Positions 11,285 through 45,363 of a stretch of 64,000 nt of DNA are shown in pieces. The notes below the pieces were generated by a model. It was not told the origin of the DNA and made no database searches. It saw only the letters and a program-made list of their open reading frames with translations. The position numbers and the translations under genes are program-made. This DNA is from Pseudomonas frederiksbergensis. GTDB taxonomy: Bacteria > Pseudomonadota > Gammaproteobacteria > Pseudomonadales > Pseudomonadaceae. Location: the NCBI RefSeq assembly GCF_900105495.1, contig NZ_FNTF01000002.1:1153501-1217500 (forward strand), given 5' to 3'. The first letter of the stretch is position 1, and each line of letters begins with the position of its first letter.

Positions 11285-11640
11285 AAGACTCTCCGGGTGT
11301 CGCATTCAGTTGACTTCCATGAATCTGGCGGCGTGTTTGCCAAACAGTCTGGACGTTCATTCAAGATATAAGAGGCACAACTTTGACGCGGGTATTAGTC
11401 AATAAATTGGCTATATTTTTTCGATATAAACTTTATGCCAAACTATTGACCTCTTGCCCGCCATCCTAAACACTCGCTTCCGTAATGTCACATTGATATT
11501 TAAGTGCTGGCACGTGCCAGAGAGTGTGATGCAGTTCCAAAATGCAACTTTCCGACATACGGTCATTCCGGATGTCATCATCCGATGCAGCGGCACGATC
11601 TGCAGTGACTCAAGACAAGTAAATCCTGGAAATTCCAACC
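11285..11640. promoter_or_regulatory. Divergent lapA / lapEBC control region
   Basis: This 356-bp stretch carries no convincing gene and is much more AT-rich than its flanks (about 11360-11450). It must hold the promoters for lapA (leftward) and lapEBC (rightward). The only clear site I see is the FleQ-like box listed separately. The short reading frames here overlap the lapE start and show no RBS. Confidence 0.75.
11398..11411. promoter_or_regulatory. FleQ-like box
   Basis: GTCAATAAATTGGC matches the published Pseudomonas FleQ consensus GTCANTAAATTGAC at every defined position but one. It lies 114-127 bp upstream of the lapA start. FleQ is a c-di-GMP-responsive regulator known to control lapA-type adhesin and exopolysaccharide genes, so the position is biologically sensible. 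Binding is inferred from sequence only. Confidence 0.6.
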
Positions 11641-12993: not shown

Positions 12994-13035
12994 GCAGAAC
13001 CTTCATTGTTCAATTGTTAGCCAAGAGTGCCGAGC

Positions 13036-26250: not shown

Positions 26251-26276
26251 ATGCTTCACTGAAACAGAAGGTTTTC

Positions 26277-28918: not shown

Positions 28919-29588
28919 TCGCCGGAGTCTTACGGGTAGGTACCTTGTCTGGAAACTGGTGTGACCGCAGCTCTTCTGCAGAGATGACTCTGCGCATCCA
29001 ATGGGAATGTTCCTTCAGCGAGCCTGGTGGGGTTCGTTTGAACCCTGTTCTGTACGGAAGAACGACACCCACTGTCATTTGGGGAAAGTCTTCTCGGATA
29101 GCTCTCAGCGCGGGGGCCATGTCTGTATCCCCGGAAACTAAAACCAGTTGTTGGATGCCTTCAGCACCATTGACCTTGGCTTGTCTGGCTGCTGCGCGAT
29201 ACATGCTTATTGCAATATGGACGTCGGTTTCCTTTTCCTCGAGCTTCCATATGGCAGTTGTATCTTGGCGTGAGGCGCCGATCTTCTTGTTGATAAATCG
29301 GGGTGCGCGCGCAGGTTCAAGTTGGTGGCGACCATAATGAACGGCAACATTGTGAGCCCTCAGGGCACGGACGTAAGTGTCTTGAGCCTCTTTGGAAACG
29401 ATGCCGCGAGTAGCCAGCTCTGGTTTAACCGAGGATGTGAAGTAGTCAATTGAGGCTAGCGAGCTCTGAGGATTTTCAATATGGGCGATATGCGCCAGTA
29501 ACTGCGGCAGATTTAGCCATTTGTAAGGTGTGTCTGCCAGCAACCCGTAGAACACGTTGTAGCCATCAACAAAGAATGCAGTGCGCAC
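28899..29588 (-). CDS. NYN-domain (PIN-like) putative RNase
   Basis: This 229-residue protein belongs to the NYN/LabA (DUF88-like) family of PIN-fold metal-dependent nucleases. The acidic positions expected of the fold are present: FFVDGYN (D8), EEKETDVHIAISM in the middle, and LVSGDTDMAPAL near residue 150. The GTG start has GAGG 9 nt upstream. The sequence is visibly more AT-rich than its neighbours and the gene runs against the flanking operons, which may indicate transfer. A palindromic terminator lies only about 20 bp upstream of its start. RNA cleavage is known for relatives; the target here is unknown. Confidence 0.85.
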   Translation of the reverse strand: MRTAFFVDGYNVFYGLLADTPYKWLNLPQLLAHIAHIENPQSSLASIDYFTSSVKPELATRGIVSKEAQDTYVRALRAHNVAVHYGRHQLEPARAPRFINKKIGASRQDTTAIWKLEEKETDVHIAISMYRAAARQAKVNGAEGIQQLVLVSGDTDMAPALRAIREDFPQMTVGVVLPYRTGFKRTPPGSLKEHSHWMRRVISAEELRSHQFPDKVPTRKTPAIKPDYW

Positions 29589-30089: not shown

Positions 30090-30863
30090 ATGCGGCGTGT
30101 TCGTGTGTGGGTTATTGGATTGACCTTGGTAACGTGCGCAGTCCAGGCGCAAACGCCTGCGCCCGACGATCCGCTGCTGGACAGCAGCGCCAGTGCAAAC
30201 GTCAGCAGTGAGGCCCGTGGCGTGCTGCGTGCCCGGGATCAGGCGGTGCTCGCCAGTGAGTTGTCCGGACGTATTGTCGAGTTGCCGTTCAGTGAGGGCG
30301 AGTCGTTCAAGAAGGGCGACACCCTGGCGCGTTTCGATTGTTCGGCTTATCAAGCCCAACTCAATGCGGCCCAGGCTGCCAGCCGTGGCGCCGGTGAAGA
30401 GCTGTCCCACAACAAGCAGTTGGCGGCGTTGAATTCGGTCGGGCGTTTTGAAGTGGCGCGGGCCGCGGCCAAGGTCAGTGAGACTCAGGCGCAATCCCAG
30501 GTTTATCAGGTTCAGGTCAAACGCTGCAGCGTGCTGGCGCCGTTCGATGGCCAGGTTGTCGAGCGCAAGGTCAAGCGTTATGAAAGCGTCGCTGCCGGCA
30601 CGCCGTTACTGGACGTGGTCGACAACCGTACCCTGGAAATTCATCTGCTGGTGCCGTCGCGCTGGATGTCCCGGCTCAAGCCTGGCCAGACCTTCAGCTT
30701 TGTTCCCGATGAAACCGGTCAGCCACTGAATGCCACGGTTAAACGCCTCGGCGCGCGGATTGACGAAGGCAGTCAGACCTTGCTGTTGGTGGCGACGCTT
30801 CCCAGCGCCAACGGTTTGCTGGCCGGCATGAGTGGCACTGCACGTTTCGCGGAGCTTAAATGA
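30090..30863 (+). CDS. Periplasmic HlyD/RND-type adaptor (short)
   Basis: This 257-residue secreted adaptor has a signal peptide ending near residue 20 (TLVTCAVQA|QTP). The lipoyl-like strand LASELSGRIVELPFSEGESFKKGDTLARFD is followed by a short helical hairpin and a beta-barrel (APFDGQVVERKVKRYESVAAGTPLL). It has no transmembrane anchor besides the signal and is shorter than usual adaptors. It is the first of three tightly packed genes: its stop overlaps the next ATG (ATGA at 30860). A GGGAG ribosome site precedes it. Predicted role: part of a periplasmic conduit with the next two products. Confidence 0.85.
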   Translation: MRRVRVWVIGLTLVTCAVQAQTPAPDDPLLDSSASANVSSEARGVLRARDQAVLASELSGRIVELPFSEGESFKKGDTLARFDCSAYQAQLNAAQAASRGAGEELSHNKQLAALNSVGRFEVARAAAKVSETQAQSQVYQVQVKRCSVLAPFDGQVVERKVKRYESVAAGTPLLDVVDNRTLEIHLLVPSRWMSRLKPGQTFSFVPDETGQPLNATVKRLGARIDEGSQTLLLVATLPSANGLLAGMSGTARFAELK

Positions 30864-32179
30864 ACGCGCCCGTCGCGGGCGGCGCAGAGCAAGTATTCGC
30901 AAGGTTTCTGGATCTCGAACGCCTGACTCGCGCCGCTCGTACGCCTGTGCAATTGGCCTATAGCCTGGTCAATGACGGTCAGGCGCTGTTCGGCTTTCGC
31001 CACGCGGCGCTGGTGATTGCCGGTAAGGTGCAGGCCGTGACGGGCGTCAGTGCGGTGGAGCCGAATGCGCCATTCGTGGCGTTTGTCGAGCAGGCCGTGG
31101 CGCAGTTGTTCAAGCGCGAGATGCTGAAACAGGCGCGGGTGATTCCGCCGAATGTTCTTGGCGAATCGATTCGGGCGGACTGGCAAAGTCTTTGCGCCGC
31201 TCAGGTGTTCTGGCTGCCACTGATCGATCACCAGGGCGAGGTATTTGGCGGTTTGTGGTTGGCGCGGGATCTGCCGTGGAATCCTTCCGAGCAAGTGTTG
31301 CTGTCGCAATTGGGTGACACCTACAGCCATGCCTGGCTGGCATTGCAACCGCGCAAACCGTGGCGACTGCGCTGGACGCGAAAACGTCAGGTAGCGCTGG
31401 TCGCGGTGGTGTTGCTCGGGCTGCTGATTCCGGTGCGGCAATCGGTGCTGGCGCCGGCCGAGGTTGTTCCGCTGGGTGGCCGAGTCGTTGCGGCGCCGCT
31501 GGACGGGGTGATCGCCGAATTCCTGGTCAAACCCAATCAGACGGTGAAAGCCGGCGACCTGTTGTTGCGCTTTGAAAGCACCACGCTCAGGGCCCAGGCC
31601 GATGTGGCCGCGCGCGCCTTGGGCGTTGCTGAAGCTGAGTTGAAGGCCAATTCCCAACGCTCGTTCGCCGATGCTGAATCGAGCTCGAAAATCGATCTGC
31701 TGGCCGCACGCGTCGAGCAAAAACGTGCTGAACGGGATTACGCCCGTGAACTGCTCAAACGCAGCGAAGTGCGCGCCGAACGGGCCGGTATTGCGGTGTT
31801 CGCCGACGCGGAACGCTGGACCGGTAAACCGGTGCAGACCGGCGAGCGGCTGATGGAAATCGCCGACCCGACCCAGGCTGAGTTGCGCATCGAACTGGCG
31901 GTGGGCGATGCGATTTCGCTGGAGCCAGGCGCGCAAGTTGCGCTGTTTCTCGACAGTGACCCATTGCAACGGCATTTGGCCCGACTTGAACGCGCAGCTT
32001 ACGAAGCACAACCCACGGCCGGCGGGCAGCTGGCTTATCGTCTCGACGCCAGTTTCCAGCAGACGCCACCGCGCATCGGGCTGCGAGGCACGGCGAAAGT
32101 CTTCGGTGACCGTGCGCCGCTGGCGCTGTACCTGTTACGTAAACCTTTGGCCGGTTTGCGCCAGAGCGTAGGGCTTTAG
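30860..32179 (+). CDS. Inner-membrane HlyD-like protein with an N-terminal GAF-like domain
   Basis: This 439-residue protein has an unusual two-part layout. Residues about 10-165 look like a cytoplasmic GAF-type sensory domain (LTRAARTPVQLAYSLVNDGQ, then VFWLPLIDHQGEVFGGLWLAR). A basic stretch and one transmembrane helix follow (about 175-200, QVALVAVVLLGLLIPV). The periplasmic part is HlyD-like: lipoyl strand GGRVVAAPLDGVIAEFLVKP, a coiled coil, and FADAERWTGKPVQTGERLMEIADP. It overlaps the preceding gene by 4 bp and abuts the M50 gene with no gap. GAF domains usually bind small molecules or mediate dimerisation, so export might be gated by a signal; that is inference. Confidence 0.78.
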   Translation: MNAPVAGGAEQVFARFLDLERLTRAARTPVQLAYSLVNDGQALFGFRHAALVIAGKVQAVTGVSAVEPNAPFVAFVEQAVAQLFKREMLKQARVIPPNVLGESIRADWQSLCAAQVFWLPLIDHQGEVFGGLWLARDLPWNPSEQVLLSQLGDTYSHAWLALQPRKPWRLRWTRKRQVALVAVVLLGLLIPVRQSVLAPAEVVPLGGRVVAAPLDGVIAEFLVKPNQTVKAGDLLLRFESTTLRAQADVAARALGVAEAELKANSQRSFADAESSSKIDLLAARVEQKRAERDYARELLKRSEVRAERAGIAVFADAERWTGKPVQTGERLMEIADPTQAELRIELAVGDAISLEPGAQVALFLDSDPLQRHLARLERAAYEAQPTAGGQLAYRLDASFQQTPPRIGLRGTAKVFGDRAPLALYLLRKPLAGLRQSVGL

Positions 32180-34276
32180 ATGAGCCTGCCGAACCTGCGC
32201 GCAGATTTGCAGCTGACGCCTGCATCACCAGCGCTCGATGGCTCGCCACGCTGGACCCTGGCCGATCCGGTGCGCGGTCGCTATTTCAAACTCGGCGTGG
32301 CGGCGATGCGCCTGCTGCGCCATTGGTCCTTGGGTGATCCCGAGCAAGTACTGCGTGCCGCCAACCGTGAGCCAGGCTTGCCGCTGGATAGCGCGGAGCT
32401 AGAGCAATTGCTGGCCTTTTTGCGCAGCCACGACCTGATCACCGCCCTGGATCCGCAACAGCGCGCCAGTTACAGCCTCAAAGCGGCCGCTCAACGCCAG
32501 TCGCTGTGGCAGATCTTGCTGCACCAATACCTGTTTTTCCGTATTCCGCTGTGGCGCCCGGACGCTTTTCTCAATCGCGCCTGGCCATGGCTGCAGCGCT
32601 TCGGTCCGCGCGCGTTGCGCTACGGCTTGCCAGTGACGCTGGGGCTCGGCGTGTTTCTGGTGTCCCGGGACTGGCAGCGCTTTATCGCGACCTTCCCGCA
32701 TCTATTCAGCCTCGGCGGCGCGCTGGCATTCGGCGTGGCGTTGTTCTTTGCCAAGCTCTGCCACGAGTTCGGTCACGCCTTCATGGCCAAGCGCGCCGGT
32801 TGTCGGGTGCAGAGCATGGGCGTGGCGTTCATGGTGTTGTTGCCGATGTTTTACACCGATGTCAGCGATGCCTGGCGGGTCAATGATCGTCGTGCGCGGC
32901 TGCTGATTGGCGCCGGTGGCGTGCTGGCGGAATTGCTGTTGGCGAGCCTTGCGCTGCTCGCCTGGTCGCTGCTGCCAGACGGTCCCGGACGCACGGCGGC
33001 GTTCATGCTCGCCAGCGCTACCTGGATGACCACGCTGGTGATCAACCTCAACCCGTTCATGCGCTTTGATGGCTATTTTTTGCTCAGTGACTATTGGCAA
33101 GTCGACAACCTTCAAGCGCGAGCCTTTGCCCTTTGTCGTTGGCGCTTGCGCGAGTTTTTATTCGGTTACGGCGCGCCGGCACCAGAGCCTTGGTCGCCGA
33201 AGATGCAACGGCGTTTGCTGATCTGGGGTTACGGCGCGTGGCTGTGGCGTGCGGCGTTGTTTTTCGGGATTGCGCTGGCGGTCTACCACTTGTTCTTCAA
33301 GGTATTGGGGATTTTCCTGATGCTGGTGGAACTGGTGTGGTTCATCTTCCTGCCGATCATGAGTGAGTGGCGGCAATGGTGGGCTCGTCGCGAACAGGCG
33401 TATGCGCCTCGGGTGCTGCTCACTGGCCTGGCCCTGTTTGGGCTGTTGCTGATGCTGGTCGTGCCGTGGCGCAGCGCCGTGGAGTTGCCGACGATGCTGG
33501 AGGCTGGCCGCGCCAGTGCCTTGCACGCGCCCGTCGCGGCGCGGGTCAAAACGGTAAATGTTCACGATGGTGAAGCGGTTGTCCAAGGCCAGGTGTTGAT
33601 TGAGCTGGAATCCCCGGATCTGGATTCGCGCCAGGCCATCGTCCGTCGTGAAATCCAGATCCAGCAGTTGCAGATGCGCCGTCAGGCCAGCCGCAGTGAA
33701 ACCGCCGCCGACGCCGGAATCGTCGAACAGCGCCTGGCCGAAGCGGTCGCCGAATACCGAGGCCTGGCCGCCCAGCGTGAGCGCCTGCTGCTGCGGGCGC
33801 CCCATGCCGGCAAGGTGCGTGATCTGTTGCCGCAGTTGGCGGTCGGTCGCTGGTTGTCGAGCAAAGATCCGCTGGCGCGGGTGGTCGAAGACGGCGCGCG
33901 GTTACGCGGGTATCTGGCCGAAGTCGAGCTCTGGCGTGTCGCCACGGGCGCCAGCGGGCGCTTCATCGCCGACGATCCGATGCACCCGGCGATTGCCGTG
34001 CAATTGAGTGAAATCGACACCAACGGCGCGGAATTTGTCGATCAGGAAGCGTTGACCTCTGATCACCATGGACCGATTGCCGTGCGCCGGGATCAGCATC
34101 AAAGAGCGGAGCCGGTACAGGCGCAATATGGGGCGCGGTTGAGCGTCCTCGAGAACGTACCGACCCCGATGCAACCCTTGCGCGGCATTGTGGTGTTGCA
34201 GGGGCGCGGCGAGTCGTTGCTGGGTGTCGCCTGGCGGCGGTTGGCGGCGCTGGGCGTAAGGGAAAGCGGTTTTTAG
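32180..34276 (+). CDS. M50-family membrane metallopeptidase fused to a HlyD-like domain
   Basis: This 698-residue polytopic membrane protein has the zinc motif H195-E-F-G-H199 within a hydrophobic helix. The second M50 motif N-P-F-M-R-F-D297-G follows about 100 residues later, so the site-2-protease-type active site looks complete. An N-terminal region (1-110) has a PqqD-like winged-helix flavour (GRYFKLGVAAMRLLRHW). About six further hydrophobic helices span 130-430. The C-terminal 250 residues are HlyD-like (ALHAPVAARVKTVNVHDGEAV, then a coiled coil and LLRAPHAGKVRDLLP). It starts immediately after the previous stop. Such fusions accompany export of large repeat proteins or peptides; here it takes the place of the missing ABC exporter. 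Confidence 0.88.
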   Translation: MSLPNLRADLQLTPASPALDGSPRWTLADPVRGRYFKLGVAAMRLLRHWSLGDPEQVLRAANREPGLPLDSAELEQLLAFLRSHDLITALDPQQRASYSLKAAAQRQSLWQILLHQYLFFRIPLWRPDAFLNRAWPWLQRFGPRALRYGLPVTLGLGVFLVSRDWQRFIATFPHLFSLGGALAFGVALFFAKLCHEFGHAFMAKRAGCRVQSMGVAFMVLLPMFYTDVSDAWRVNDRRARLLIGAGGVLAELLLASLALLAWSLLPDGPGRTAAFMLASATWMTTLVINLNPFMRFDGYFLLSDYWQVDNLQARAFALCRWRLREFLFGYGAPAPEPWSPKMQRRLLIWGYGAWLWRAALFFGIALAVYHLFFKVLGIFLMLVELVWFIFLPIMSEWRQWWARREQAYAPRVLLTGLALFGLLLMLVVPWRSAVELPTMLEAGRASALHAPVAARVKTVNVHDGEAVVQGQVLIELESPDLDSRQAIVRREIQIQQLQMRRQASRSETAADAGIVEQRLAEAVAEYRGLAAQRERLLLRAPHAGKVRDLLPQLAVGRWLSSKDPLARVVEDGARLRGYLAEVELWRVATGASGRFIADDPMHPAIAVQLSEIDTNGAEFVDQEALTSDHHGPIAVRRDQHQRAEPVQAQYGARLSVLENVPTPMQPLRGIVVLQGRGESLLGVAWRRLAALGVRESGF

Positions 34277-34366
34277 GGAGCGCAACGAAACCGTGTTACC
34301 CGCAGGCTGGCAGTGTTGCATTGAACCTGTAACCAAAATCGCGTTTTTCAGACGATTTAGCTTCGA

Positions 34367-34378
34367 TTTGATATCAAA
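34367..34378. promoter_or_regulatory. Perfect 12-bp palindrome upstream of the sulfotransferase
   Basis: TTTGATATCAAA is a perfect palindrome in the AT-rich 164-bp gap between the M50 gene and the sulfotransferase. It could be an operator or part of a promoter for the second half of the cluster. I cannot assign a regulator. Confidence 0.35.
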
Positions 34379-34440
34379 ACACCATTACCCGTAAGGCTGT
34401 TCATGGTCTACGCTCCCTCATACATAAAGGACTGACCAGG

Positions 34441-35286
34441 GTGAAGGGATTGCCACAGTTCCATTTTATTTCCGGCTTGCCGCGCTCAGGCTCGACCCTG
34501 CTTTCTGCGATCCTTTTGCAGAACCCGCGTTTTCATGCCGGCATGACCAGCCCCGTTGGCGCCCTGTTTTCCGGGGTTCTGGAACAGTGCAGCGCCGGCA
34601 GCGAGTTCGGTGCGGTGATCGATACCGATCTGCGCCGTCGTTTGCTTCGCGGTCTGTTCGATTCCTTCTACGCCGACAAGGCCGACAAACCGGTGGTGTT
34701 CGACACCAATCGGTTATGGAGCTCGCGCCTGCCGGCCATCCGCGATCTGTTCCCGCAAGCCAAGGTCATTGCCTGCGTGCGCAATGTCGCCTGGGTCATG
34801 GACAGCATCGAGCGTTTGTATCGCGCCAACCCCTATGAAAACACCAAGCTGTTCGGCGATGCGGTCGAGCGCAACACGGTCTACAGCCGTTGCGAAACCC
34901 TGGCCCAGCGCAATCGCCTGGTGGGGTTTGCCTGGGCAGCGCTCAAGGAAGCCTATTACGGCGAACAGGCCGACTCATTGCTGATTGTCGATTACGACCT
35001 GTTGAGCCAGGCACCGGAACGGGTGATGCGGCTGGTCTACGACTTTATCGGCGAGCCCTGGTTCGAACATGATTTCGACCATTTGGCCTACGACGCACCG
35101 GAGTTCGACCAGGCCCTCGGCCTCTCAGGGCTGCATAAGGTGAAGGCCAAGGTCCAATTGCAATCCAGGCGAACGATCCTGCCGCCGGATTTGTTCAAGC
35201 AGTACGCCGAGTTGTCTTTTTGGCTCGATGGCTCAGCCAGCGCCGCCAATGTCATTCGTATGAAGGCCGACGCCGCGATCAGTTGA
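34441..35286 (+). CDS. PAPS-dependent sulfotransferase
   Basis: This 281-residue cytoplasmic sulfotransferase has the 5'-phosphosulfate loop at residues 10-21 (ISGLPRSGSTLL). The 3'-phosphate-binding arginine and serine are R114 and S122 in CVRNVAWVMDS. The overall pattern (F-I-S-G-x-P-R-S-G-S-T-L-L) is closest to the protein-tyrosine sulfotransferase-like branch, though short bacterial members may act on other acceptors. GTG start with AAGGA 10 nt upstream. It lies between the M50-HlyD gene and the giant LEPR-XLL gene, and an APS kinase closes the cluster, so donor supply and transfer are encoded together. The acceptor is unknown; the giant protein itself is a candidate by position only. Confidence 0.82.
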   Translation: MKGLPQFHFISGLPRSGSTLLSAILLQNPRFHAGMTSPVGALFSGVLEQCSAGSEFGAVIDTDLRRRLLRGLFDSFYADKADKPVVFDTNRLWSSRLPAIRDLFPQAKVIACVRNVAWVMDSIERLYRANPYENTKLFGDAVERNTVYSRCETLAQRNRLVGFAWAALKEAYYGEQADSLLIVDYDLLSQAPERVMRLVYDFIGEPWFEHDFDHLAYDAPEFDQALGLSGLHKVKAKVQLQSRRTILPPDLFKQYAELSFWLDGSASAANVIRMKADAAIS

Positions 35287-35298
35287 TCGCGGCGTTTT
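35271..35298 (+). terminator. Strong hairpin with T run at the sulfotransferase stop
   Basis: CGCCGCGATC (35271-35280) pairs perfectly with GATCGCGGCG (35285-35294) across a four-base loop, followed by TTTT. The stem includes the last codons and stop of the sulfotransferase. It looks like an intrinsic terminator or attenuator ahead of the giant gene. It also argues against ATG 35304 as that gene's start, since its ribosome site would be in the stem. Confidence 0.7.
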
Positions 35299-35336
35299 CA
35301 TTGATGCCTCAGAAAGTTCGAGTCCGGGTGAGCAGC

Positions 35337-38300
35337 ATGTGGTGGAGCAACGGCAAGTCGCGAGTTACCGAAGGCGCACGGGCGCTGGCCTCACCCATGA
35401 TCATGTCCCTGGAGCCGCGCATGCTGTTCGACGGCGCGGTGGCGGCCACGGTGGCCGATACCGCTCAGGCAGACAGCCAAAGCACGGCTGATGCCGCCAA
35501 GGCACCAACGACCGATCAACCGGCTGCCAGCCAGGACACCCACGACCAGACCGATGCCACACCTGCACCCGTGGCCGTTGCCGTGCCGGGCCAGACCGTG
35601 GTGTTCGTCGATTCGCGGGTCAAGGACGCTGGCAGTCTTCTTCAGGGTATCGCTCCCGGTACCCAGGTGGTTCAGCTGGATGCCAGCCAGGATGGCCTGC
35701 AGCAAATCGCCGATTATCTGGACGGCCATCAGGGCATCAGTTCGGTACAGATCATTGCCCATGGCAACGCGGGCGATCTGTGGCTGGGCAATAGCTACTT
35801 GTCTGCCGACAACGTCGCGGCCCGCAGCGCGGTACTGACGGAAATCGGCAAGGACATGAACGTTGGCGGCGACATCCTGATCTACGGCTGCTACACCGCC
35901 GAAGGTGAGCGCGGCTTGAGTTTTGTCGACTCGCTGGCGCAACTGACCGGCCGTGATGTGGCCGCCTCCAGCGATCGCACCGGGCTCGCTGGCGACTGGG
36001 ATCTGGAAATTGCCACGGGCACCATCGAAAGCGCCAACGTCCTCTCGGCCACGGCCATGAGCGACTATCAATGGGGCCTGGCGACCTGGACGGCCACCAA
36101 CAATGCCAACACCGGTGTCGGTTCGTTGCGTGCGGCGATCGCCTCGGCGCAGAACGGCGATATCGTTACCTTCAACGGCAACATGACGGTACAGCTGACG
36201 TCCGAGCTGCTGATCAACAAGAACATCACCGTTGATGGCGACTTGAACAACGACGGTGCGGCTGACGTGATTCTCGATGGTCAGTACCGGACCCGAGTGA
36301 TTGAAGTGTCGTCTGGCAGCATCGTGACGCTCGATGGCCTGGTGATCACCCGCGGCCTGGTGTCGGGCACGGGCGGCAACGGTGGCTACGGTGCCGCGGG
36401 CGCGATGGCCGGGGGTGTTTTCAACGCAGGGATTCTGACCCTGAATAACGTCAGCGTAACCTCCAACGGCGCTTCCGGTGGCGGTGGCGGCGGCGGTGTG
36501 ACGGGCGCTTTTTACGGCGGCGGCGGTGGCGGTGGCGGCGGTTTGGGCGGCCAGGGCGGCGGGCATGGCGGTTCGGCAGGGCCGGGCACCGGCACATTGG
36601 GCGGCCAGGCGGGCGGCGGTGGTGTCGGTGGTTACGGCGGCGGTTATGACGCCACCCACATGGGCGGTCGCGGTGGTACCACCACTGGCGGGGCTGGCGG
36701 CGTAGGCGTTTCCTATTACAGCAACGGCGGTAACGGTGCGACGGCCACCAATGGCACGATTTCCATTGGCGGCGGTGGTGGCGGGGCCGGTTGGGACAAG
36801 GTCGGTGGCGCTGGCGGCAACGCGGTGGGCGGGATCTACAACGCCAGCAGCGGCACCCTCACCATCGTCGGCACCTCGACCATCAGCAACAACATCGGTG
36901 CTGGTGGCGGTGGCGGCGGTGGTGGTGGCCAAGGCAGTAATGCCAGCAATGGCGGCATTGGTGGCCGGGGCGTCGGTGCGATCTGGAACAAAGGCACACT
37001 GCTGATGACGGCCGCCAACTTCGCCGCCCTGGCCGGTAATGCCGCGGCCAGTGGCGCAGGCGGTACCGCGCAGGGCGGTGGCAGCACCGGCACCTCACCA
37101 ACCGCCGTCGCGACAATCTATAACGACGGCGGCCTACTCAACACCGCGTATTCGCCGCCACCGACCGCGACCATTGTGGTTGCTGACACCACGCTGAGCA
37201 TCGGCGAAACGTCCCTGGTGACCATTACCTTCTCCGAGGTGGTGCTCGGTTTCACCAATGCGGACCTGACCATCGCCAACGGCACGTTGACAGCGGTAAG
37301 CAGCGGCGATGGAGGCCTTACGTGGACCGCAACGTTCACGCCGTCCGCCAGCATTTCCGATACGAGCAATGTCATCACTCTGGACAATACCGGTGTGATC
37401 AACATCCTGGGCACCGCTGGCGTCGGCACCACCAATTCCAATAACTACACGGTCGACACCGTACGCCCGACCGCCCTCATCGCGTTTACCGACACGGCCC
37501 TCAAGGTCGGCGAAACCTCCTTGGTGACTATCACCTTCAACGAAGCGGTCACCGGTCTCACCAATGCTGACCTGACGATTGCCAACGGCACCCTGACCGC
37601 GGTGAGCAGCGGCGATGGCGGGCTCACCTGGACGGGGACCTTCACGCCGAGCGCGAGCATCACCGACACAAGCAACCTGATCACCCTGGACAACACCGGC
37701 GTCAGCGACCTGGCGGGCAACGCCGGCAGCGGCACCACCGATTCCAACAACTACGCCATCGACACCGTGCGGCCAACAGCGACCATCGTGGTGACGGACA
37801 CCGCGCTGAGAATCGGTGAAACCTCACTGGTGACGATCACCTTCAGCGAAGCCGTCAGCGGTTTCAGCAACGCCGACCTCACCATCGCCAACGGCGTGTT
37901 GACGGCGGTGAGCAGCAGCGACGGCGGCATCACCTGGACCGCCACGTTCACCCCGAACACGAGCGTCAACGACACGACCAACCTGATCACCCTGAACAAC
38001 ACCGGCATCGCGGATCTGGCGGGCAACACCGGCAGCGGCACCACTGATTCGAACAACTATGCGATCGATACGCTTCGTCCAACCGCAACCATTGTGGTGG
38101 CGGACAATGCGCTGAGAATCGGCGAAACCTCGCTGGTGACCATCACCTTCAATGAAGCCGTCAGCGGTTTCACCAACGCCGACCTGACCATCGCCAACGG
38201 CACGTTGACTGCGGTGAGCAGCAGCGATGGCGGTATCACCTGGACGGCGACGTTTACCCCGACCGCCAGCATCACCGACACGACCAACCTGATCACCCTG

Positions 38301-41300
38301 GACAACACCGGCGTGGCGGATCTGGAGGGCAACGCCGGCAGCGGCACTACCGATTCCAACAACTTTGCGGTCGATACGGTGCGCCCGACGGCCACCATCG
38401 TGGTGACGGACACGGCGCTGAGAATCGGCGAAACCTCACTGGTGACCATCACCTTCAGTGAGGCGGTCAGCGGTTTCACCAACGCCGACCTGACCATTAC
38501 CAACGGCACGTTGACCGCGGTGAGCAGCAGCGATGGCGGTATCACCTGGACCGCGACCTTCACGCCGAGCGCGAGCATCAACGACAGCACCAACCTGATC
38601 ACCTTGAACAACACCGGCATCGCGGATCTGTCGGGCAACACCGGCAGCGGCACTACCGATTCCAACAACTACGCCATCGACACCGTGCGTCCGACCGCCA
38701 CGATTGTGCTGGCCGATCCCACACTGATCGCGGGCGAAACCTCGCTGGTGACCATCACCTTCAGCGAAGCGGTCAGTGGTTTCACCAACGCCGACCTGAC
38801 CATCGCCAACGGCACCCTGACCGCCGTGAGCAGCAGCGACGGCGGCATTACCTGGACCGCGACCTTCACACCAACCGTCGGCATAAGTGACCCGAGCAAC
38901 GTCATCACCCTGAACAATACCGGTGTGGCCGACATTTCCGGCAACACCGGCAGCGGCACCACCAACTCCGGCAACTACACCATCGATACGGTGCTGCCGA
39001 CCGCCACTATCGTTGTTGCCGACAACGCGCTGAGAATCGGCGAAACCTCACTGGTGACCATCACCTTCAACCAGGCCGTGACCGGTTTCACCAACGCCGA
39101 TTTGACCCTCGCCAACGGCACGTTGACCGCGGTGAGCAGCAGCGACGGCGGCATCACCTGGACCGCGACTCTCACGCCGAGCGCGAGCATCACCGACACG
39201 ACCAACCTGATCACCCTCGACAACACCGGCGTGCAGGCTGTCGGCACCGGTAATGTGGGCAGCGGCACCACCGACTCCAACAACTACGCCATCGATACCG
39301 TGCGGCCAACGGCAACCATCGGGGTGACGGACACGGCGCTGAGAATCGGCGAAACCTCACTGGTGACGATCACCTTCAGTGAGGCGGTCAGCGGTTTCAC
39401 CAACGCGGACCTGACCATTACCAACGGCACCTTGAGCGCGGTGAGCAGCAGCGACGGCGGTATCACCTGGACCGCGACCTTCACGCCGAGCGCGAGCATC
39501 AACGACACCACCAACCTGATCACCTTGAACAACACCGGCATCGCGGATCTGGCGGGCAACACTGGCAGCGGCACCACCGATTCCAATAACTATGCGATCG
39601 ACACGGTTCGCCCTACGGCGACCATCGTTCTGGCTGACCCGACCCTGAGTGCCGGGGAAACCTCCCTGGTGACCATCACCTTCAGCGAATCGGTCAGCGG
39701 GTTCACCAACGCTGACCTGTCCATCGCCAACGGTACATTGACGGCGGTGAGCAGCAGCGACGGCGGCATCACCTGGACCGCGACCTTCACACCAACCGTC
39801 GGCATAAGTGACCCGAGCAACGTCATCACCCTGAACAATACCGGTGTGGCCGACATTTCCGGCAACACCGGCAGCGGCACCACCAACTCCGGCAACTACA
39901 CCATCGACACGGTGCTGCCGACCGCCACCATCGTCGTGGCCGACAATGCGCTGAGCGTCGGTGAAACGTCGCTGGTCACCATCACGTTCAGCGAAGCCGT
40001 CAGCGGTTTCAGCAACGCCGACCTGACCATCGCCAATGGCACGTTGACCGCGGTGAGCAGCAGCGATGGCGGCATCACCTGGACCGCGACGTTCACGCCG
40101 ACGGCCAGCATTACCGACGCGACCAACCTGATCAGCCTGAACAACAGCGGTGTACAAAATGCCTCGGGCAACGCAGGCAGCGGCACCACCGATTCCAACA
40201 ACTACGCCATCGACACCGTGCGGCCAACCGCGACCATCGTCGTGGCGGATACCGCATTGGCGCTGGGTCAAACCACGGTGGTCACCATCACCTTCTCCGA
40301 GGCGGTGACCGGTTTCACCACCGCCGACCTCACGGCCGCCAACGGCACCCTGAGCGGCCTGAGCACCAGCGATAACATCACCTACACCGCGACCTTCACC
40401 CCGACGGCGAGCATCAACGATGCAACCAATATCATCACGCTGAACAACACCGGCATTGTGGACGGAGCCGGCAACACTGGCGCGGGCACCACCGATTCCA
40501 ACAACTACGCGATCGACAGTCTGCGTCCGACCGCCACGATTGTGTTGGCCGATACGACACTGGCAGCGGGCGAAACCTCGCTGGTGACCATCACCTTCAG
40601 CGAAGCGGTCAGCGGTTTCGCCAACGCCGACCTGACCATCGCCAACGGCACCCTGACGGCGGTGAGCAGCAGCGACGGCGGCATCACCTGGACTGCGACC
40701 TTCACGCCAACCGTCGGCGTGAGTGACCCGAGCAACGTCATCACCCTGAACAATACCGGTGTGACCGACATCGCCGGCAACACCGGCAGCGGCACCACCA
40801 GTTCCGGCAACTACACCATCGATACGGTCCTGCCGACCGCCACTATCGTGCTCGCCGATAACGCGCTGAAAATCGGCGAAACATCGCTGGTGACCATTAC
40901 GTTCTCGGAAGCGGTGAGCGGTTTCAGCAATGCCGACCTGACGATTGCCAACGGCACGTTGACGGCGGTGAGTAGCAGCGATGGCGGCGTCACCTGGACG
41001 GCAACATTCACCCCGACCGGCGCGATCACCGACACCAGCAATCTGATCACCCTGGACAACACGGGCGTGCAAAACGTCTCGGGCAACACCGGCAGCGGCA
41101 CGACCGACTCCAACAATTACGCCATCGACACCCTGCGCCCGACGGCCACTATCGTGGTCGCAGATGCAGCGCTGGCGGTGGGGCAAACCTCGGTGGTGAC
41201 CATCACCTTCTCCGAGGCGGTAACCGGTTTTACTACAGCCGACCTGACGGTGAGCAACGGTACCCTGAGCAATCTGAGCACCAGCGATAACATCACCTGG

Positions 41301-43226
41301 ACCGCCACCCTGACGCCGACCGCGAGCGTCACCGATTCGACCAACCTGATTACCCTGGACAACACCGGAGTGATCGATGGGGCGGGTAACACCGGCAGCG
41401 GCACAACGGACTCCAACAATTACGCCATCGACAGCCAGCGCCCGACCGCGGCCATTGTGTTGAGCGATACAACCCTGAAACCGGGAGAAACTGCGCTGGT
41501 GACCATCACCTTCAGCGAAGCGGTGAGCGGTTTCGACAACAGCGATTTGAGCGTCGCCAACGGCACGTTGAGCAATGTCAGCAGCAGCGACGGCGGCATC
41601 ACCTGGACCGCAACGTTCACGCCTGCCATCGGCGTGACCGACACCAGCAACCTCATCACCCTGAACAATACCGGCGTCACGGACCAGGCCGGCAACGCGG
41701 GCTCGGGCACGACCAACTCCGCCAACTATGTGGTGGAAACCCAGGTGCCGACCGCCACCATCGTGGTGGCCGACAACGCCCTCAAGGCGGGTGAAACCTC
41801 GGGGGTGACCATCACCTTCAGCGAAGCGGTCAGCGGTTTCACCAACGCGGACCTGAGCATTGCCAACGGCACGCTGAGCAACGTGTCGTCCAGCGATGGC
41901 GGTGTTACCTGGACCGCGACGTTCACGCCGACCGTCGATGTGACGGACACCACCAACCTGATCAGCCTCGACAACAGCGGTGTAATCAACGCGTCGGGCA
42001 ACAGTGGCGTGGGCGTGCCCGATTCCAACAACTACGCCATCGACACGGCGCGGCCGACGGCGACCATCGTGGTGGCGGATAACCGCTTGGGCATCGGCGA
42101 GACGACCACGGTCACCATCACCTTCACCGAGACTGTTTCAGGTTTCGACCTGTCGGACCTCAGCGTCGCCAATGGCACCTTGTCCAACCTGCTCAGCAGC
42201 GATGGCGGCAAGACCTGGACCGCCACCCTGACCCCGACCGCCAGCATCAGCGACACCACCAACCTGATCCTGCTCGACAGCAGCCTTGTGGCAGACGCCG
42301 CGGGCAACGCCGGTGCCGGGATCGCGATCTCCAACAACTACGCGCTCGATGCCACCCGGCCGACGGCAACCATCGTGGTCGCCAACCCGAACCTGGGCGT
42401 CGGTCAAACCACGCTGGTGACCATCACCTTCAGCGAAGTGGTGAGCGATTTCGACCTGTCGGACCTCAGCGTCACCAACGGCGAGCTCACCAACCTGGCC
42501 AGCAGCGACGGCGGCAAGACCTGGACCGCGACCTTCACGCCGACGGCGAGCATCACTGACCCGAGCAACTTCATTGCGCTGGACAGCAGCAACGTCAGCG
42601 ACGGTTCGGGCAATACCGGCACGGGTGTGGCGGTGTCCAACAACTACACCATCGACACCGTGCCGGTGCAGACGCCTGCCGTGGTCGTGACGCCTGACCC
42701 GCTGGCCCGGATCCCACCGCCGGTCACCGTTGCCGATCAGCCCAACGTGCCACTGCAACCGATCATTTTCACGCCCCCGACCGGCGATCTCGGCTCACCG
42801 CTGACCTTTACCCCGTTGTTCGAAAGCCGCGTGATCGGCAATGGCATCCGGCCGCTGGGCGACATCTTCATGAACCACGGTGCGCTGGCCCCCAGCTTCA
42901 TCGCCCAGGTGTTCAGCAGCAGTGACAGCGGTGGCGATGGCTCGGGCAACGGCTTCCTCGGCTTCGGCGGTGGCGATGGCGGGGTGTTCGGCACCAGCAC
43001 GCTGTCGAGCCTGTTCAATCAGGACGCCGGCAGCGAACGAGACTCGCTGAACTCATTCGGCAGCCAGTCGATCAAGGCCGGGGATGTTTCACAGGGGCTG
43101 CGCGGCGTGTTTGGTGCGCCGAGTCTCGTCCAGCAATTGCAACAGCTCAAAGACACCGAGCAACGGCAGGTCGACAGCCTGGCCGCGGCTTTGCGACAGG
43201 TCGGCGTCAGCGAAATGCAGGCCTGA
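35337..43226 (+). CDS. Giant LEPR-XLL / DUF4347 / Ig-like-repeat surface protein
   Basis: This 2,629-residue predicted exported protein starts at ATG 35337 (GGTGAG 5 nt upstream); in-frame starts at 35304 and 35328 are alternatives. It has no Sec signal. Residues 21-34 carry the LEPR-XLL motif (S-L-E-P-R-M-L-F-D-G-A), known at the N-terminus of very large repetitive proteins. Residues about 86-245 form a DUF4347 domain with H142 (IIAHGNAG) and C185 (IYGCYTA). About 250-590 is a Gly-rich, beta-helix-like region (GSLRAAIASAQNGD, poly-Gly stretches). Eighteen Ig-like repeats of about 102 residues span about 604-2441. A 190-residue tail rich in Pro, Ser and Gly ends in a probable coiled coil (QQLQQLKDTEQRQVDSLAAALRQ region). 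There are no RTX nonapeptides. A dedicated TolC-type gene follows 42 bp later. Adhesion or aggregation is inferred from architecture. Confidence 0.88.
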   Translation: MWWSNGKSRVTEGARALASPMIMSLEPRMLFDGAVAATVADTAQADSQSTADAAKAPTTDQPAASQDTHDQTDATPAPVAVAVPGQTVVFVDSRVKDAGSLLQGIAPGTQVVQLDASQDGLQQIADYLDGHQGISSVQIIAHGNAGDLWLGNSYLSADNVAARSAVLTEIGKDMNVGGDILIYGCYTAEGERGLSFVDSLAQLTGRDVAASSDRTGLAGDWDLEIATGTIESANVLSATAMSDYQWGLATWTATNNANTGVGSLRAAIASAQNGDIVTFNGNMTVQLTSELLINKNITVDGDLNNDGAADVILDGQYRTRVIEVSSGSIVTLDGLVITRGLVSGTGGNGGYGAAGAMAGGVFNAGILTLNNVSVTSNGASGGGGGGGVTGAFYGGGGGGGGGLGGQGGGHGGSAGPGTGTLGGQAGGGGVGGYGGGYDATHMGGRGGTTTGGAGGVGVSYYSNGGNGATATNGTISIGGGGGGAGWDKVGGAGGNAVGGIYNASSGTLTIVGTSTISNNIGAGGGGGGGGGQGSNASNGGIGGRGVGAIWNKGTLLMTAANFAALAGNAAASGAGGTAQGGGSTGTSPTAVATIYNDGGLLNTAYSPPPTATIVVADTTLSIGETSLVTITFSEVVLGFTNADLTIANGTLTAVSSGDGGLTWTATFTPSASISDTSNVITLDNTGVINILGTAGVGTTNSNNYTVDTVRPTALIAFTDTALKVGETSLVTITFNEAVTGLTNADLTIANGTLTAVSSGDGGLTWTGTFTPSASITDTSNLITLDNTGVSDLAGNAGSGTTDSNNYAIDTVRPTATIVVTDTALRIGETSLVTITFSEAVSGFSNADLTIANGVLTAVSSSDGGITWTATFTPNTSVNDTTNLITLNNTGIADLAGNTGSGTTDSNNYAIDTLRPTATIVVADNALRIGETSLVTITFNEAVSGFTNADLTIANGTLTAVSSSDGGITWTATFTPTASITDTTNLITLDNTGVADLEGNAGSGTTDSNNFAVDTVRPTATIVVTDTALRIGETSLVTITFSEAVSGFTNADLTITNGTLTAVSSSDGGITWTATFTPSASINDSTNLITLNNTGIADLSGNTGSGTTDSNNYAIDTVRPTATIVLADPTLIAGETSLVTITFSEAVSGFTNADLTIANGTLTAVSSSDGGITWTATFTPTVGISDPSNVITLNNTGVADISGNTGSGTTNSGNYTIDTVLPTATIVVADNALRIGETSLVTITFNQAVTGFTNADLTLANGTLTAVSSSDGGITWTATLTPSASITDTTNLITLDNTGVQAVGTGNVGSGTTDSNNYAIDTVRPTATIGVTDTALRIGETSLVTITFSEAVSGFTNADLTITNGTLSAVSSSDGGITWTATFTPSASINDTTNLITLNNTGIADLAGNTGSGTTDSNNYAIDTVRPTATIVLADPTLSAGETSLVTITFSESVSGFTNADLSIANGTLTAVSSSDGGITWTATFTPTVGISDPSNVITLNNTGVADISGNTGSGTTNSGNYTIDTVLPTATIVVADNALSVGETSLVTITFSEAVSGFSNADLTIANGTLTAVSSSDGGITWTATFTPTASITDATNLISLNNSGVQNASGNAGSGTTDSNNYAIDTVRPTATIVVADTALALGQTTVVTITFSEAVTGFTTADLTAANGTLSGLSTSDNITYTATFTPTASINDATNIITLNNTGIVDGAGNTGAGTTDSNNYAIDSLRPTATIVLADTTLAAGETSLVTITFSEAVSGFANADLTIANGTLTAVSSSDGGITWTATFTPTVGVSDPSNVITLNNTGVTDIAGNTGSGTTSSGNYTIDTVLPTATIVLADNALKIGETSLVTITFSEAVSGFSNADLTIANGTLTAVSSSDGGVTWTATFTPTGAITDTSNLITLDNTGVQNVSGNTGSGTTDSNNYAIDTLRPTATIVVADAALAVGQTSVVTITFSEAVTGFTTADLTVSNGTLSNLSTSDNITWTATLTPTASVTDSTNLITLDNTGVIDGAGNTGSGTTDSNNYAIDSQRPTAAIVLSDTTLKPGETALVTITFSEAVSGFDNSDLSVANGTLSNVSSSDGGITWTATFTPAIGVTDTSNLITLNNTGVTDQAGNAGSGTTNSANYVVETQVPTATIVVADNALKAGETSGVTITFSEAVSGFTNADLSIANGTLSNVSSSDGGVTWTATFTPTVDVTDTTNLISLDNSGVINASGNSGVGVPDSNNYAIDTARPTATIVVADNRLGIGETTTVTITFTETVSGFDLSDLSVANGTLSNLLSSDGGKTWTATLTPTASISDTTNLILLDSSLVADAAGNAGAGIAISNNYALDATRPTATIVVANPNLGVGQTTLVTITFSEVVSDFDLSDLSVTNGELTNLASSDGGKTWTATFTPTASITDPSNFIALDSSNVSDGSGNTGTGVAVSNNYTIDTVPVQTPAVVVTPDPLARIPPPVTVADQPNVPLQPIIFTPPTGDLGSPLTFTPLFESRVIGNGIRPLGDIFMNHGALAPSFIAQVFSSSDSGGDGSGNGFLGFGGGDGGVFGTSTLSSLFNQDAGSERDSLNSFGSQSIKAGDVSQGLRGVFGAPSLVQQLQQLKDTEQRQVDSLAAALRQVGVSEMQA
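37150..42645 (+). repeat. 18 tandem Ig-like units of about 306 bp
   Basis: Units begin P-T-A-T-I-V and recur every 303-309 bp (for example 37445, 37751, 38057, 38363, 38669, 38975, 39284). Each contains G-E-T-S-L-V-T-I-T-F, S-S-D-G-G-I-T-W-T-A-T-F-T-P and D-S-N-N-Y-A-I-D-T. The first and last three units are the most diverged and the middle ones the most alike. Units 11 and 14 carry an N-I-T variant in place of G-G-I-T and are one residue shorter. Confidence 0.95.
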
Positions 43227-43268
43227 AAAAACACCTAAAAACAATGCTGTGTCCAGGGGCAGTCAAGG

Positions 43269-44783
43269 ATGAATAGAAGTTCTAAGTTGTTTGGTGCCAG
43301 CCTGCTGGCGCTTGCAGTCAGCGGATGTGCAGTCACCAGTGAACCGATCGAACGCAGCGTCAGCCAACAGCGCGCCAGGAGCGACCTGCAAAACATGTAC
43401 AAGGATCAGGAGCCCCTCAGCGGTCCGCTGACCCTGCATCAAGCCATGGCCCGCGCAGTGAAGTACAACCTCGAAGGCCGGCTCAAAATCATGGAAGAGG
43501 CCCTGGCCAAGCGCCAACTCGACCTCGCCAGTTTCGACATGCTGCCGCGCATGGCGCTGGACGCCGGGTACGTCGGCCGCAACAACGTCAACGCCTCCAG
43601 CAGCCAGAGCGTACGGACCGGCACCCAGTCTCTGGAGCCATCGACCTCGCAAGACCGCGACCGTGAAGTCGCCGACCTGACCATGGTCTGGAACGTGCTC
43701 GATTTTGGCGTCAGCTACATCAGCGCCAAGCAACAGGGCGACCAGCGACTGATCGTTCAGGAGCGCCGGCGCAAGGTGATCAACACCATCGTTCAGGACG
43801 TGCGTTCGGCCTACTGGCGAGCCATGGCCGCCGAGCGCTTGCTCAAGCAGATCGACAGCCTCATGGCCCGGGTCGACACCGCGCGCGGCAACAGCCAAAG
43901 CATGAGCCAGCAGCGAATCGGCGATCCGATTCAGGCGCTGGGGTATCAACGCTCGCTGATCGAAGCCACCCGCCAACTGGAAGAACAGCGGCGTGCGCTG
44001 TCGCTGGCGAAAACCGAACTGGCGACCCTGATCAATCTGCCGCTGGGCACCGACCTGACCCTGGCGACCCAGGACGACTATGTCATTCCGGAGTTGAAAG
44101 TCGACCTCGCCAGCCTGGAACAGGAAGCCCTGACCAGTCGTCCCGAGCTGCGTGAGCAGGATTACCAAAGCCGCATCAGCGCGGCGGAAACCCGCAAAGC
44201 CATGTTGCGGCTGCTGCCGGGGCTGGAGTTCTCGGCGGGCGGGCATTACGACAGCAACTCGTTCCTGGTGGAGCAGGGCTGGGCCGACTACGGCGTGAAA
44301 GTGACGTGGAACCTGTTCAACGTGATCTCCGCTCCGGCGGCGATCAACGTCGCCAAGGCCGGCGAAGAAGTCGCTGCGGCGCGCCGCCAGGCCATGTCGA
44401 TTGCGGTGCTGGCGCAGCTTTATGTGGCCAACGCCAACTACCGCGAGGCGTTGCGGCAGTTCAAGACCAATCAGCAACTGTCGGACATCGACGGGCAGAT
44501 CGTTGGCCAGCTGCGCAACCGTTATCAGGCGGCCGGGCTGGGTGAACTGGACTTGATCCAGGGCGAATTGAACACTTTGCAGGCCGATTTGCGTCGCGAC
44601 CTGTCGTACGCCGATCTGCGTAACGCTTACGGCCAGATCTTTGCCAGTGCGGGGCTCGATCCGCTGCCGGATCAGGTGCAATCCACCCAAGTGCAATCCA
44701 TTGCCACCGCGCTGGCCAACCGCGAAGCGGCGTGGGCGGACGGGAACATCACGACACCGGTGGCCCATGCCCCGGTCCAATAA
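43269..44783 (+). CDS. TolC-family outer membrane lipoprotein of the LEPR-XLL cluster
   Basis: This 504-residue outer-membrane efflux protein is lipidated: the signal ends in LLALAVSGC with the lipid cysteine at residue 20. The OEP repeats run from about 55 to 470. VADLTMVWNVLDFGVSYISAKQQGDQ and DYGVKVTWNLFNVISAPAAI are the paired membrane-strand/helix transitions of this fold. It begins 42 bp after the giant gene and overlaps the APS kinase by 17 bp. Predicted role: outer-membrane exit for the giant protein, working with the three HlyD-type proteins upstream. It is distinct from LapE (11641). Confidence 0.88.
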   Translation: MNRSSKLFGASLLALAVSGCAVTSEPIERSVSQQRARSDLQNMYKDQEPLSGPLTLHQAMARAVKYNLEGRLKIMEEALAKRQLDLASFDMLPRMALDAGYVGRNNVNASSSQSVRTGTQSLEPSTSQDRDREVADLTMVWNVLDFGVSYISAKQQGDQRLIVQERRRKVINTIVQDVRSAYWRAMAAERLLKQIDSLMARVDTARGNSQSMSQQRIGDPIQALGYQRSLIEATRQLEEQRRALSLAKTELATLINLPLGTDLTLATQDDYVIPELKVDLASLEQEALTSRPELREQDYQSRISAAETRKAMLRLLPGLEFSAGGHYDSNSFLVEQGWADYGVKVTWNLFNVISAPAAINVAKAGEEVAAARRQAMSIAVLAQLYVANANYREALRQFKTNQQLSDIDGQIVGQLRNRYQAAGLGELDLIQGELNTLQADLRRDLSYADLRNAYGQIFASAGLDPLPDQVQSTQVQSIATALANREAAWADGNITTPVAHAPVQ

Positions 44784-45363
44784 TCTGCTGGCGCCGACGG
44801 CGAGCATCAGCCGCGCACAACGGGAGGCGCGCAACGGCCATCGCGGCACGGCGATTTTACTCACCGGTTTGCCAGCGGCAGGTAAATCGACCTTGGCCCA
44901 GGCGCTGCACGCCGAGCTGTTCGGGCGCGGCGTGCAGAGCATCGTGCTCGATGGCGACGGGCTGCGGGTCGGGCTCAATCGGGATCTGGGTTTTACCGAC
45001 AGTGACCGTCTGCAGAACATCCGCCGCGCCAGCGAAGTCGCGGCGCTGCTGGTGGAGAACGGGCAAATCGTCATCCTGGCGATGATCGCGCCGCTGATGG
45101 AGTTACGTGAGGTGTTTGCCCGGCGACTGGGCGAGGATTACCGCGAAGTCTGGTGCAGCGCTTCCCTCACCGTGTGCGAGCAGCGCGACCCGAAAGGGCA
45201 TTACGCCCGTGCACGACGGGGGGATTTGCCAGGGTTTACCGGCGTGTCTGCGCCGTATGAACCGCCGTTGTCCGCTTCCTTGGTGCTTGATACGGGCGTG
45301 CAATCGGTTGAGGCCTGTCTCGATCACTTGCTGACCTGGCTTGGCGGTGAGGTGTTGGGCTAG
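44767..45363 (+). CDS. cysC: Adenylylsulfate (APS) kinase
   Basis: This 198-residue kinase makes PAPS from APS and ATP. Walker A is GLPAAGKST (34-42). DGDGLRVGLNRDLGF (62-76) replaces the more usual DGDNVRHGLNxDLGF. CEQRDPKGHYARARRGDLPG and GVSAPYEPP are characteristic of CysC. The serine that is phosphorylated in E. coli CysC (I-S-P) is alanine here (A108), which is tolerated in some homologues. I start at ATG 44767, overlapping the TolC-type gene by 17 bp. This is a stand-alone kinase not linked to cysDN, and its position suggests it feeds PAPS to the sulfotransferase at 34441. Confidence 0.87.
   Translation: MPRSNNLLAPTASISRAQREARNGHRGTAILLTGLPAAGKSTLAQALHAELFGRGVQSIVLDGDGLRVGLNRDLGFTDSDRLQNIRRASEVAALLVENGQIVILAMIAPLMELREVFARRLGEDYREVWCSASLTVCEQRDPKGHYARARRGDLPGFTGVSAPYEPPLSASLVLDTGVQSVEACLDHLLTWLGGEVLG

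Follow-up and report, generated by a model that had tools for sequence, protein, structure and literature searches.

A gene cluster in a 64,000-nucleotide stretch of Pseudomonas frederiksbergensis DNA (hereafter the window, to whose positions all coordinates refer) probably encodes a dedicated system that exports giant proteins bearing the tag LEPRxxFD[GA]A at their N-terminus. In this two-membrane system, a membrane peptidase of the M50 family fused to an HlyD domain (M50-HlyD) would handle the tagged end of the cargo and a TolC-type protein would be the exit. LEPR-XLL proteins, very large proteins with LEPR-x-[LM]-[LF] as their N-terminal motif, rank among the largest repetitive proteins known from bacteria, and we know of no purpose assigned to the motif; if the present interpretation is true, it would become an export signal. 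The tag is tied to a specific machine by three counts, those of the motif pattern, of the domain DUF4347 in the giant protein, and of the gene neighbourhood, and the machine splits into a SecA-linked and a SecA-free branch. What moves 2,629 residues over two membranes without an ATP-binding cassette (ABC) pump can be tested in an ordinary soil Pseudomonas.

The genes of the cluster, identified from open reading frames (ORFs) and Pfam and NCBIfam profiles, lie on the forward strand in the order HlyD, GAF-HlyD, M50-HlyD, sulfotransferase, giant protein, TolC-type protein, and adenosine 5'-phosphosulfate (APS) kinase. The HlyD-type periplasmic adaptor (30090–30863; HlyD_3, 6.8e-20; TIGR01730, 135 bits with a cut-off of 94.9) has a hydrophobic, signal-like N-terminus according to its hydropathy. 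GAF-HlyD (30860–32179; HlyD_3, 7.6e-16) consists of an N-terminal region that is GAF-like by its homologues, followed by an HlyD domain. M50-HlyD (32180–34276; PF02163, 30.6 bits; HlyD_3) combines an N-terminal domain of three strands and three helices with a membrane M50 peptidase and a C-terminal HlyD part. The putative cargo (35337–43226) counts 2,629 residues from the start at 35337, and alternative in-frame starts are present upstream, e.g., at 35220 and 35304. It carries the tag LEPRMLFDGA (35409–35437, a DNA pattern match), DUF4347 (35598–36074; 178 bits), 18 Big_12 stretches (Pfam), and a C-terminal element starting with GAPSLVQQL (43113–43223). The TolC-type outer membrane factor (43269–44783; OEP, 1.8e-37) has a lipobox-like N-terminus, LLALAVSGC, as judged by eye. 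An earlier note on this DNA had described the three adaptor-type genes, the giant LEPR gene, and the TolC gene as running in one direction, and ORFs and Pfam domains agree with this; the sulfotransferase and APS kinase genes were missing from its list. Its statement that no ABC gene is present holds for the cluster, as searched with Pfam profiles over the ORFs of the window, yet a complete type I system is located at 11641–16549 of the same window. The cluster has the HlyD-type adaptor and TolC-type channel of a type I secretion system, and lacks the ABC exporter encoded beside the adaptor.

Relatives of M50-HlyD were found in 93 of 398 sampled Pseudomonadota genomes (genomes and loci are given below as G and L numbers). 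Full-length relatives were divided into clade A, with at least 33 % identity to the protein of the window, and clade B, with about 23–31 %. Genomes were counted as clade A when their best M50 match exceeded about 250 bits, which gave 77 genomes and excluded 16 of the 93; two of those excluded, G177 and G291, contain short M50 fragments of 41–45 % identity that may belong to clade A, and have no DUF4347. The strict DNA pattern LE[PQH]RxxFD[GA]A occurs in 35 of the 398 genomes. A clade-A M50-HlyD is present in 33 of these 35 and in 44 of the 363 others (p = 1.6e-24). Reversing the pattern gave matches in two genomes (G321 and G376), neither of which is M50-positive, and none of 100 shuffles of the window contained a match to the pattern for LEPRMLFDGA. 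Half of the 50 tag matches (25) lie within 25 kb of an M50-HlyD gene, 23 of them on the same strand; the remaining matches comprise 21 on separate contigs of M50-positive genomes, 2 far from the gene on its own contig, and 2 from genomes devoid of M50-HlyD. The linkage between tag and exporter is real.

DUF4347 shows the same association. It was detected in 95 of the 398 genomes, i.e., in 71 of the 77 with clade A and 24 of the 321 others (p = 5e-50), or in 75 of 93 vs. 20 of 305 when all M50-positive genomes are counted. Within a sample of 11 genomes of the genus, DUF4347 and clade-A M50 were both present in 5 and both absent from 6. Controls were drawn from 13 stretches, minus three flanks, a clade-B locus with a LEER motif (L233), and the rest of a clade-A giant (L235); those from G152 and one from G181 reach contig ends. 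In the stretches examined, the resulting eight DUF4347 loci, from seven genomes without clade-A M50, lacked the LEPR tag as well as all four core genes. By eye, L225, L227, and L234 have Sec-like N-termini instead, and L229 an RTX-like tail; L234 also contains an ABC match of 118 bits in a frame of 238 amino acids. G082 and G298 have both tag and exporter and no DUF4347 match. Because DUF4347 on its own goes untagged and these two genomes are tagged without DUF4347, the tag follows the machine more than its passenger domain does. Three or four tag matches were found in each of G041, G101, and G117, which suggests that one exporter serves several cargos.

The third count concerns the gene neighbourhoods of 121 clade-A loci, consisting of the window, 40 neighbourhoods chosen by hand from more than 100 clade-A places for their high scores and long contigs, and 80 named loci that are the best 80 of 586 relatives. 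The two sets overlap, as L051 and L143 have an identical M50 protein and L073 and L198 are apparently the same locus. GAF-HlyD is encoded in 116 of the 121 loci, HlyD in 102, a TolC-type protein in 84, and the complete set of four core genes in 81, the profiles having been built from loci that were subsequently counted. None of the 121 contains SecA. An ABC exporter-like gene is present in six, namely the window, L068, L146, L177, L187, and L209: in the window it is of the LapB type and about 17 kb away from M50-HlyD, in L068 and L146 it is on the opposite strand, and in L177 and L187 it is a short frame of about 240 amino acids. The earlier note had called for a survey of co-occurrence and had named consistent linkage of these families to an ABC exporter as the outcome that would speak against its proposal. 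The survey was strongly positive for tag (33/35), DUF4347 (71/77), and core set (81/121), and ABC-like genes were confined to the six loci mentioned, so that the proposal was not refuted on this point.

No further gene family emerged as a regular neighbour of clade A. The largest unlabelled family, sensor-like by eye, was present in 5 of the 40 neighbourhoods, and one of the tail-collar type in 4, with the proviso that the way in which ORFs were picked can hide genes behind antisense ORFs. One tail-collar-type protein (Pfam Collar) is encoded between M50-HlyD and the giant gene (L048:9580–10572), and similar ORFs are found beside the giant genes of L043, L046, and L047.

A tree of 73 M50-HlyD proteins placed the 53 clade-A and the 18 clade-B sequences each in one supported group, with L122 and L123 outside both. 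Clade A spans Pectobacterium, Serratia, Azospirillum, Nitrospira, Methylomonas, Marinomonas, and others. A SecA relative is encoded in 15 of the 20 clade-B stretches, one of them weak at 39 bits; with this one (L121) left out, 14 SecA-bearing loci were labelled on the tree, where the presence of SecA requires several changes. The genome from which the window was taken has one SecA_DEAD match above the cut-off. A hidden secondary SecA was sought there and not found, the one extra match, of 21 bits, being below the cut-off. Among the 77 clade-A genomes, SecA_DEAD was matched once in 32, not at all in 1, and at least twice in 44. Classical LEPR-XLL giants were found near clade B in five loci (L113, L243, L247, L249, and L233); the other clade-B stretches that were searched showed no classical LEPR motif, in part since the giants extend past the sequence examined. 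In G143, where both branches are present, the tag beside the clade-A locus (L079) is of the FDGA type and that beside the clade-B locus (L247) of the LLNS type. A wider proposal, which we put forward only tentatively, is that of a secretion pathway new to Gram-negative bacteria, in which giants tagged with N-terminal LEPRxxFDGA and C-terminal GKxxFxxQL are carried over both membranes by an M50-protease/HlyD/TolC machine without an ATPase of its own, with several LEPR cargos per cell, and that a SecA-equipped sister machine serves the classical LEPR-XLL giants.

M50-HlyD of the window shares 98 % sequence identity with proteins listed under P. mandelii and P. fluorescens. The earlier note had read its active site as H195-E-F-G-H199 with D297, correctly so: H195, E196, H199, N289, R295, D297, and G298 are invariant in all 61 aligned homologues, and the protein has the metal-binding residues HExxH and NPxxRxDG of a site-2 (M50) protease. 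In a structural model based on 61 sequences, with a predicted local distance difference test score (pLDDT) of 88.3, the HlyD part matches MacA, MexA, EmrA, and HlyD. All matches listed for this 698-residue model fall in the HlyD part or are adaptor proteins, so that no fold is assigned to the N-terminal and M50 parts. The first 85 residues are modelled as three strands followed by three helices, an order that is also that of the leader-binding domains in enzymes modifying ribosomally synthesized and post-translationally modified peptides (RiPPs). Kinship to PqqD and the RiPP recognition element (RRE) was looked for in the sequence and not found: comparisons by consensus, profile, and hhalign revealed no PqqD kinship of this domain, and the PqqD profile reached E ≤ 1 in just 2 of 61 members, at a far too weak best value of 0.13. 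The 120 listed of 1108 matches from a search for PqqD homologues were all close copies, at 90 % identity or above, and did not enter the comparison. Because no sequence comparison supports this kinship, leader binding by M50-HlyD is put forward here as a conjecture. The profile of the daptide maturation protease (NF041824) spans residues 32–391 of the window's protein at 154.7 bits, under its curated cut-off of 300, and matches all 61 members scanned.

As to GAF-HlyD, the HlyD part of the domain assignment made in the earlier note is confirmed by Pfam; the GAF part has no Pfam match in the protein of the window, and is supported by 7 of the 46 family members scanned (PF01590, best 2e-6). Some clade-A TolC-type proteins carry an extra C-terminal domain, AMIN or the NTF2-like Cds6_C (L059:4269–6650 and L073:13231–15807, the latter on the reverse strand, one each).

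The giant protein fits the definition of LEPR-XLL through LEPRMLFDGA. No NCBIfam model named for LEPR-XLL matched at E ≤ 0.01, short motifs scoring low, and the tag was recognized by eye and by the pattern. No RTX tail was seen by eye. The hydropathy peak of the LEPR segment averages 1.41 (range 0.88–2.12) in 44 proteins, with starts guessed by rule and the clade-B locus L113 included, compared with 1.6–2.2 in five Sec-like signals; since the ranges overlap, hydropathy was not accepted as proof that a Sec signal is lacking. DUF4347 is modelled as a caspase/CHAT-like fold, with corresponding fold matches, and would belong to the clan CD cysteine peptidases, of which it has the predicted fold and the histidine–cysteine dyad: the cysteine (residue 185, from the start at 35337) is found in 22 of 22 aligned sequences and the histidine (residue 142) in 19 of 22. 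The conserved histidine is replaced by glutamate, with the cysteine kept, in the Nitrospirota domains of L173, L179, and L191, which by their sequences suggests inactive or altered paralogues. The C-terminal element belongs to a GKxxFxxQL-like pattern that was derived from the same proteins in which it was then counted; it occurs in 31 of 65 giants, some of which are wrong-frame ORFs, vs. 5 of 183 other ORFs and a mean of 0.34 in shuffled sequences.

From gene content and linkage, we infer the following course of export. The tagged end of the giant would be delivered in the cytoplasm to M50-HlyD in the inner membrane, where the intramembrane protease would trim or release the leader. The three different HlyD-type adaptors could assemble into one mixed ring in the periplasm and dock there on the TolC of the same cluster, which would be the exit. 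The GKxxFxxQL-like element might be a second signal or a retention element, and processing of the giant, once it is outside, may fall to the caspase-like DUF4347 beside the leader. The motor would be neither an ABC protein nor a secondary SecA encoded in the locus. Housekeeping SecA is favoured, by analogy, because the sister branch encodes a relative of SecA within the corresponding run of genes; it is the least certain step of the scheme, and we regard it as possible while holding considerable doubt.

A drive without any ATPase would have M50-HlyD itself as the conduit, with the proton gradient or the folding of the Ig-like repeats outside the cell, acting as a ratchet, driving export. It agrees with the lack of an ATPase consistently linked to clade A and with the many long helices of the M50-HlyD model that can be read as membrane spans. 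The sister clade, on the other hand, carries SecA, and we know of no precedent for an intramembrane protease acting as a protein-conducting channel. On balance such a conduit seems unlikely, even though the M50 protein has already been proposed as a pore in the main text of Kamneva et al. (2015; PMC4452313). Rather more doubtful is a borrowed motor, with the adaptors and TolC working together with an ABC exporter encoded elsewhere, e.g., the LapB-type protein of the window. Such exporters are at hand, as the window itself contains the complete OEP-ABC-HlyD system and 17 ABC_membrane matches, 14 above the cut-off, were counted in the genome; the LapB-type system, however, adjoins its own giant adhesin-like gene, and the six ABC-positive loci among 121 do not amount to consistent linkage. 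Co-occurrence over whole genomes is no test of this point because ABC_membrane matches are present in 13 of 14 control genomes.

Other readings deny the module an export role or give it another cargo. The giant might be exported by another route and only then be processed or released by the module, like a surface-release protease system. Both M50 and DUF4347 are protease-like, and tagged cargo is also encoded on contigs in which no module was detected. A release system would, though, have no need of the conserved adaptors and of the TolC-type gene that is present in 84 of the 121 loci; the cargo of the window shows no RTX tail, and the hydrophobicity of the LEPR segment is on average lower than that of Sec signals, with overlapping ranges. 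We consider this reading improbable. Still more remote is the idea that M50-HlyD matures and exports a small peptide, with the giant as a mere passenger. The families nearest by name to the M50 part, NF041824 and NF058609, are indeed peptide-maturation proteases, but among ORFs of at least 80 amino acids in the first 40 neighbourhoods, no family of small genes is widely recurrent, and it is the giant that is the recurrent partner.

Several observations weigh against a dedicated, tag-specific export system. No motor was identified in the locus, and some of the 44 clade-A genomes with two or more SecA_DEAD matches, counted whatever their strength, may hold a secondary SecA elsewhere. Just 33 of the 77 clade-A genomes have the tag pattern, which is strict and from which some cargo deviates; a LEPR-type N-terminus was not seen within the examined stretch of 74 of the 121 clade-A loci, and six clade-A genomes are without DUF4347. 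The tag was also found without M50-HlyD in two genomes, G389 and the draft G189, which is 57 % complete. The relatives of the M50 domain mature peptides and do not export proteins, and no published experiment was found in the literature searched.

The sulfotransferase gene (34441–35286; PF13469, 1.1e-16) is located between M50-HlyD and the giant gene. Tyrosylprotein sulfotransferases (TPSTs) make up seven of the eight PDB sequences that it matches at E ≤ 1, the best at 3.5e-4 over residues 7–211; TPST1 chains 9wp1 and 5wrj match with E values of 3.5e-4 and 4.9e-4. By sequence, the closest PDB relatives of the enzyme are thus TPSTs. The APS kinase (44641–45363; PF01583, 1.1e-49; TIGR00455, 198 bits) probably starts downstream of the listed TTG because the ORF as listed shares its first part with the end of the TolC gene. 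Together, the two enzymes may sulfate the cargo in this Pseudomonas group. A blastp search with the sulfotransferase of the window found homologues in only 4 of the 121 clade-A loci (the window, L041, L044, and L220); the enzyme was ruled out as a core part on this count, which distant relatives would escape. In the locus that is the closest relative (L041:3511–6091, reverse strand), the space from M50-HlyD to the giant is shared by the sulfotransferase gene and an adjoining PMT_2 glycosyltransferase-type gene; from this arrangement the genes for cargo modification look exchangeable.

The canonical type I system at 11641–16549 (OEP, ABC, and HlyD, with the LapB-type ABC gene at 13027–15192) diverges from a giant LapA-like, adhesin-like gene on the reverse strand (2–11305; at least 3,768 amino acids, extending beyond the window), and this adhesin-like giant next door led to its rejection as the pump for the LEPR giant. 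Long forward-strand ORFs at 4499–11209 are the antisense shadow of the LapA-like gene. Directly downstream of the type I set, a PAS-GAF-GGDEF-EAL protein of 848 amino acids (16946–19492) is possibly a cyclic-di-GMP regulator of the neighbouring adhesin. Consecutive genes for a major facilitator superfamily (MFS) transporter, an HlyD adaptor, and an OEP protein (24715–28918), an EmrAB-TolC-like arrangement, precede the cluster at a short distance, with an NYN-domain gene on the reverse strand (28899–29588) in between. This set is unsupported as a pump, as a similar run, judged by ORF lengths only, was seen in L041 alone among the 40 neighbourhoods.

Among known systems, the cluster resembles the type I system of giant adhesins, of the LapEBC/LapA type, in its HlyD adaptor, its TolC partner, and its giant repetitive cargo. 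It differs from such systems in the lack of an ABC exporter and in having three types of adaptor, an intramembrane protease, and an N-terminal tag. The RaxX/RaxST-RaxA-RaxB system of Xanthomonas secretes a small sulfated peptide by means of a sulfotransferase, a sulfate-activation enzyme, HlyD, TolC, and an ABC protein. The four components other than the ABC protein are shared with the cluster, in which an ABC gene is lacking; a close sulfotransferase is encoded in only 4 of the 121 clade-A loci. With the daptide and YydH M50 proteases (NF041824 and NF058609), M50-HlyD shares a match to the NF041824 profile, at a score below the cut-off, but it is fused to HlyD and has a giant as its partner. 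The DUF4347 protein PA0256 is described, in the accessible text of PMC8262886, as a putative type VI effector, whereas DUF4347 of the window adjoins the leader of a 2,629-residue protein.

The closest likeness is to loci with a secondary SecA_DEAD protein that, according to the main text of Kamneva et al. (2015; PMC4452313), contain GAF-HlyD, M50-HlyD, HlyD, and sometimes OEP, and no ABC gene. There, the secondary SecA_DEAD was proposed as the ATPase and M50 as the pore, and the role of the set was given as unknown. The window likewise has GAF-HlyD, M50-HlyD, and HlyD together without an ABC gene. The published loci were found by way of secondary SecA, while the branch of the window has none in 121 loci and none above the cut-off in its own genome. 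No cargo is named in the main text of that paper, where neither LEPR nor sulfotransfer occurs as a word; the present analysis connects LEPR-tagged giants with the set. In the literature searched, from which most subscription papers and bioRxiv preprints were excluded, neither a link of the set to LEPR proteins, nor an experiment on it, nor an export route assigned to LEPR-XLL proteins was encountered, and the accessible text of PMC6027264 and PMC9430717, which had looked relevant, has no bearing on this gene set. The distinct route envisaged in the earlier note is borne out insofar as an ABC-less set is tied to LEPR giants. An ABC-free, type-I-like set with M50 at the position of the exporter is not new, because it was published in PMC4452313, and the type of machinery is, from the text seen, already known from this one comparative paper. 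As far as the literature search shows, what is new is the SecA-free branch, the tagged cargo, its C-terminal motif, and the caspase-like domain.

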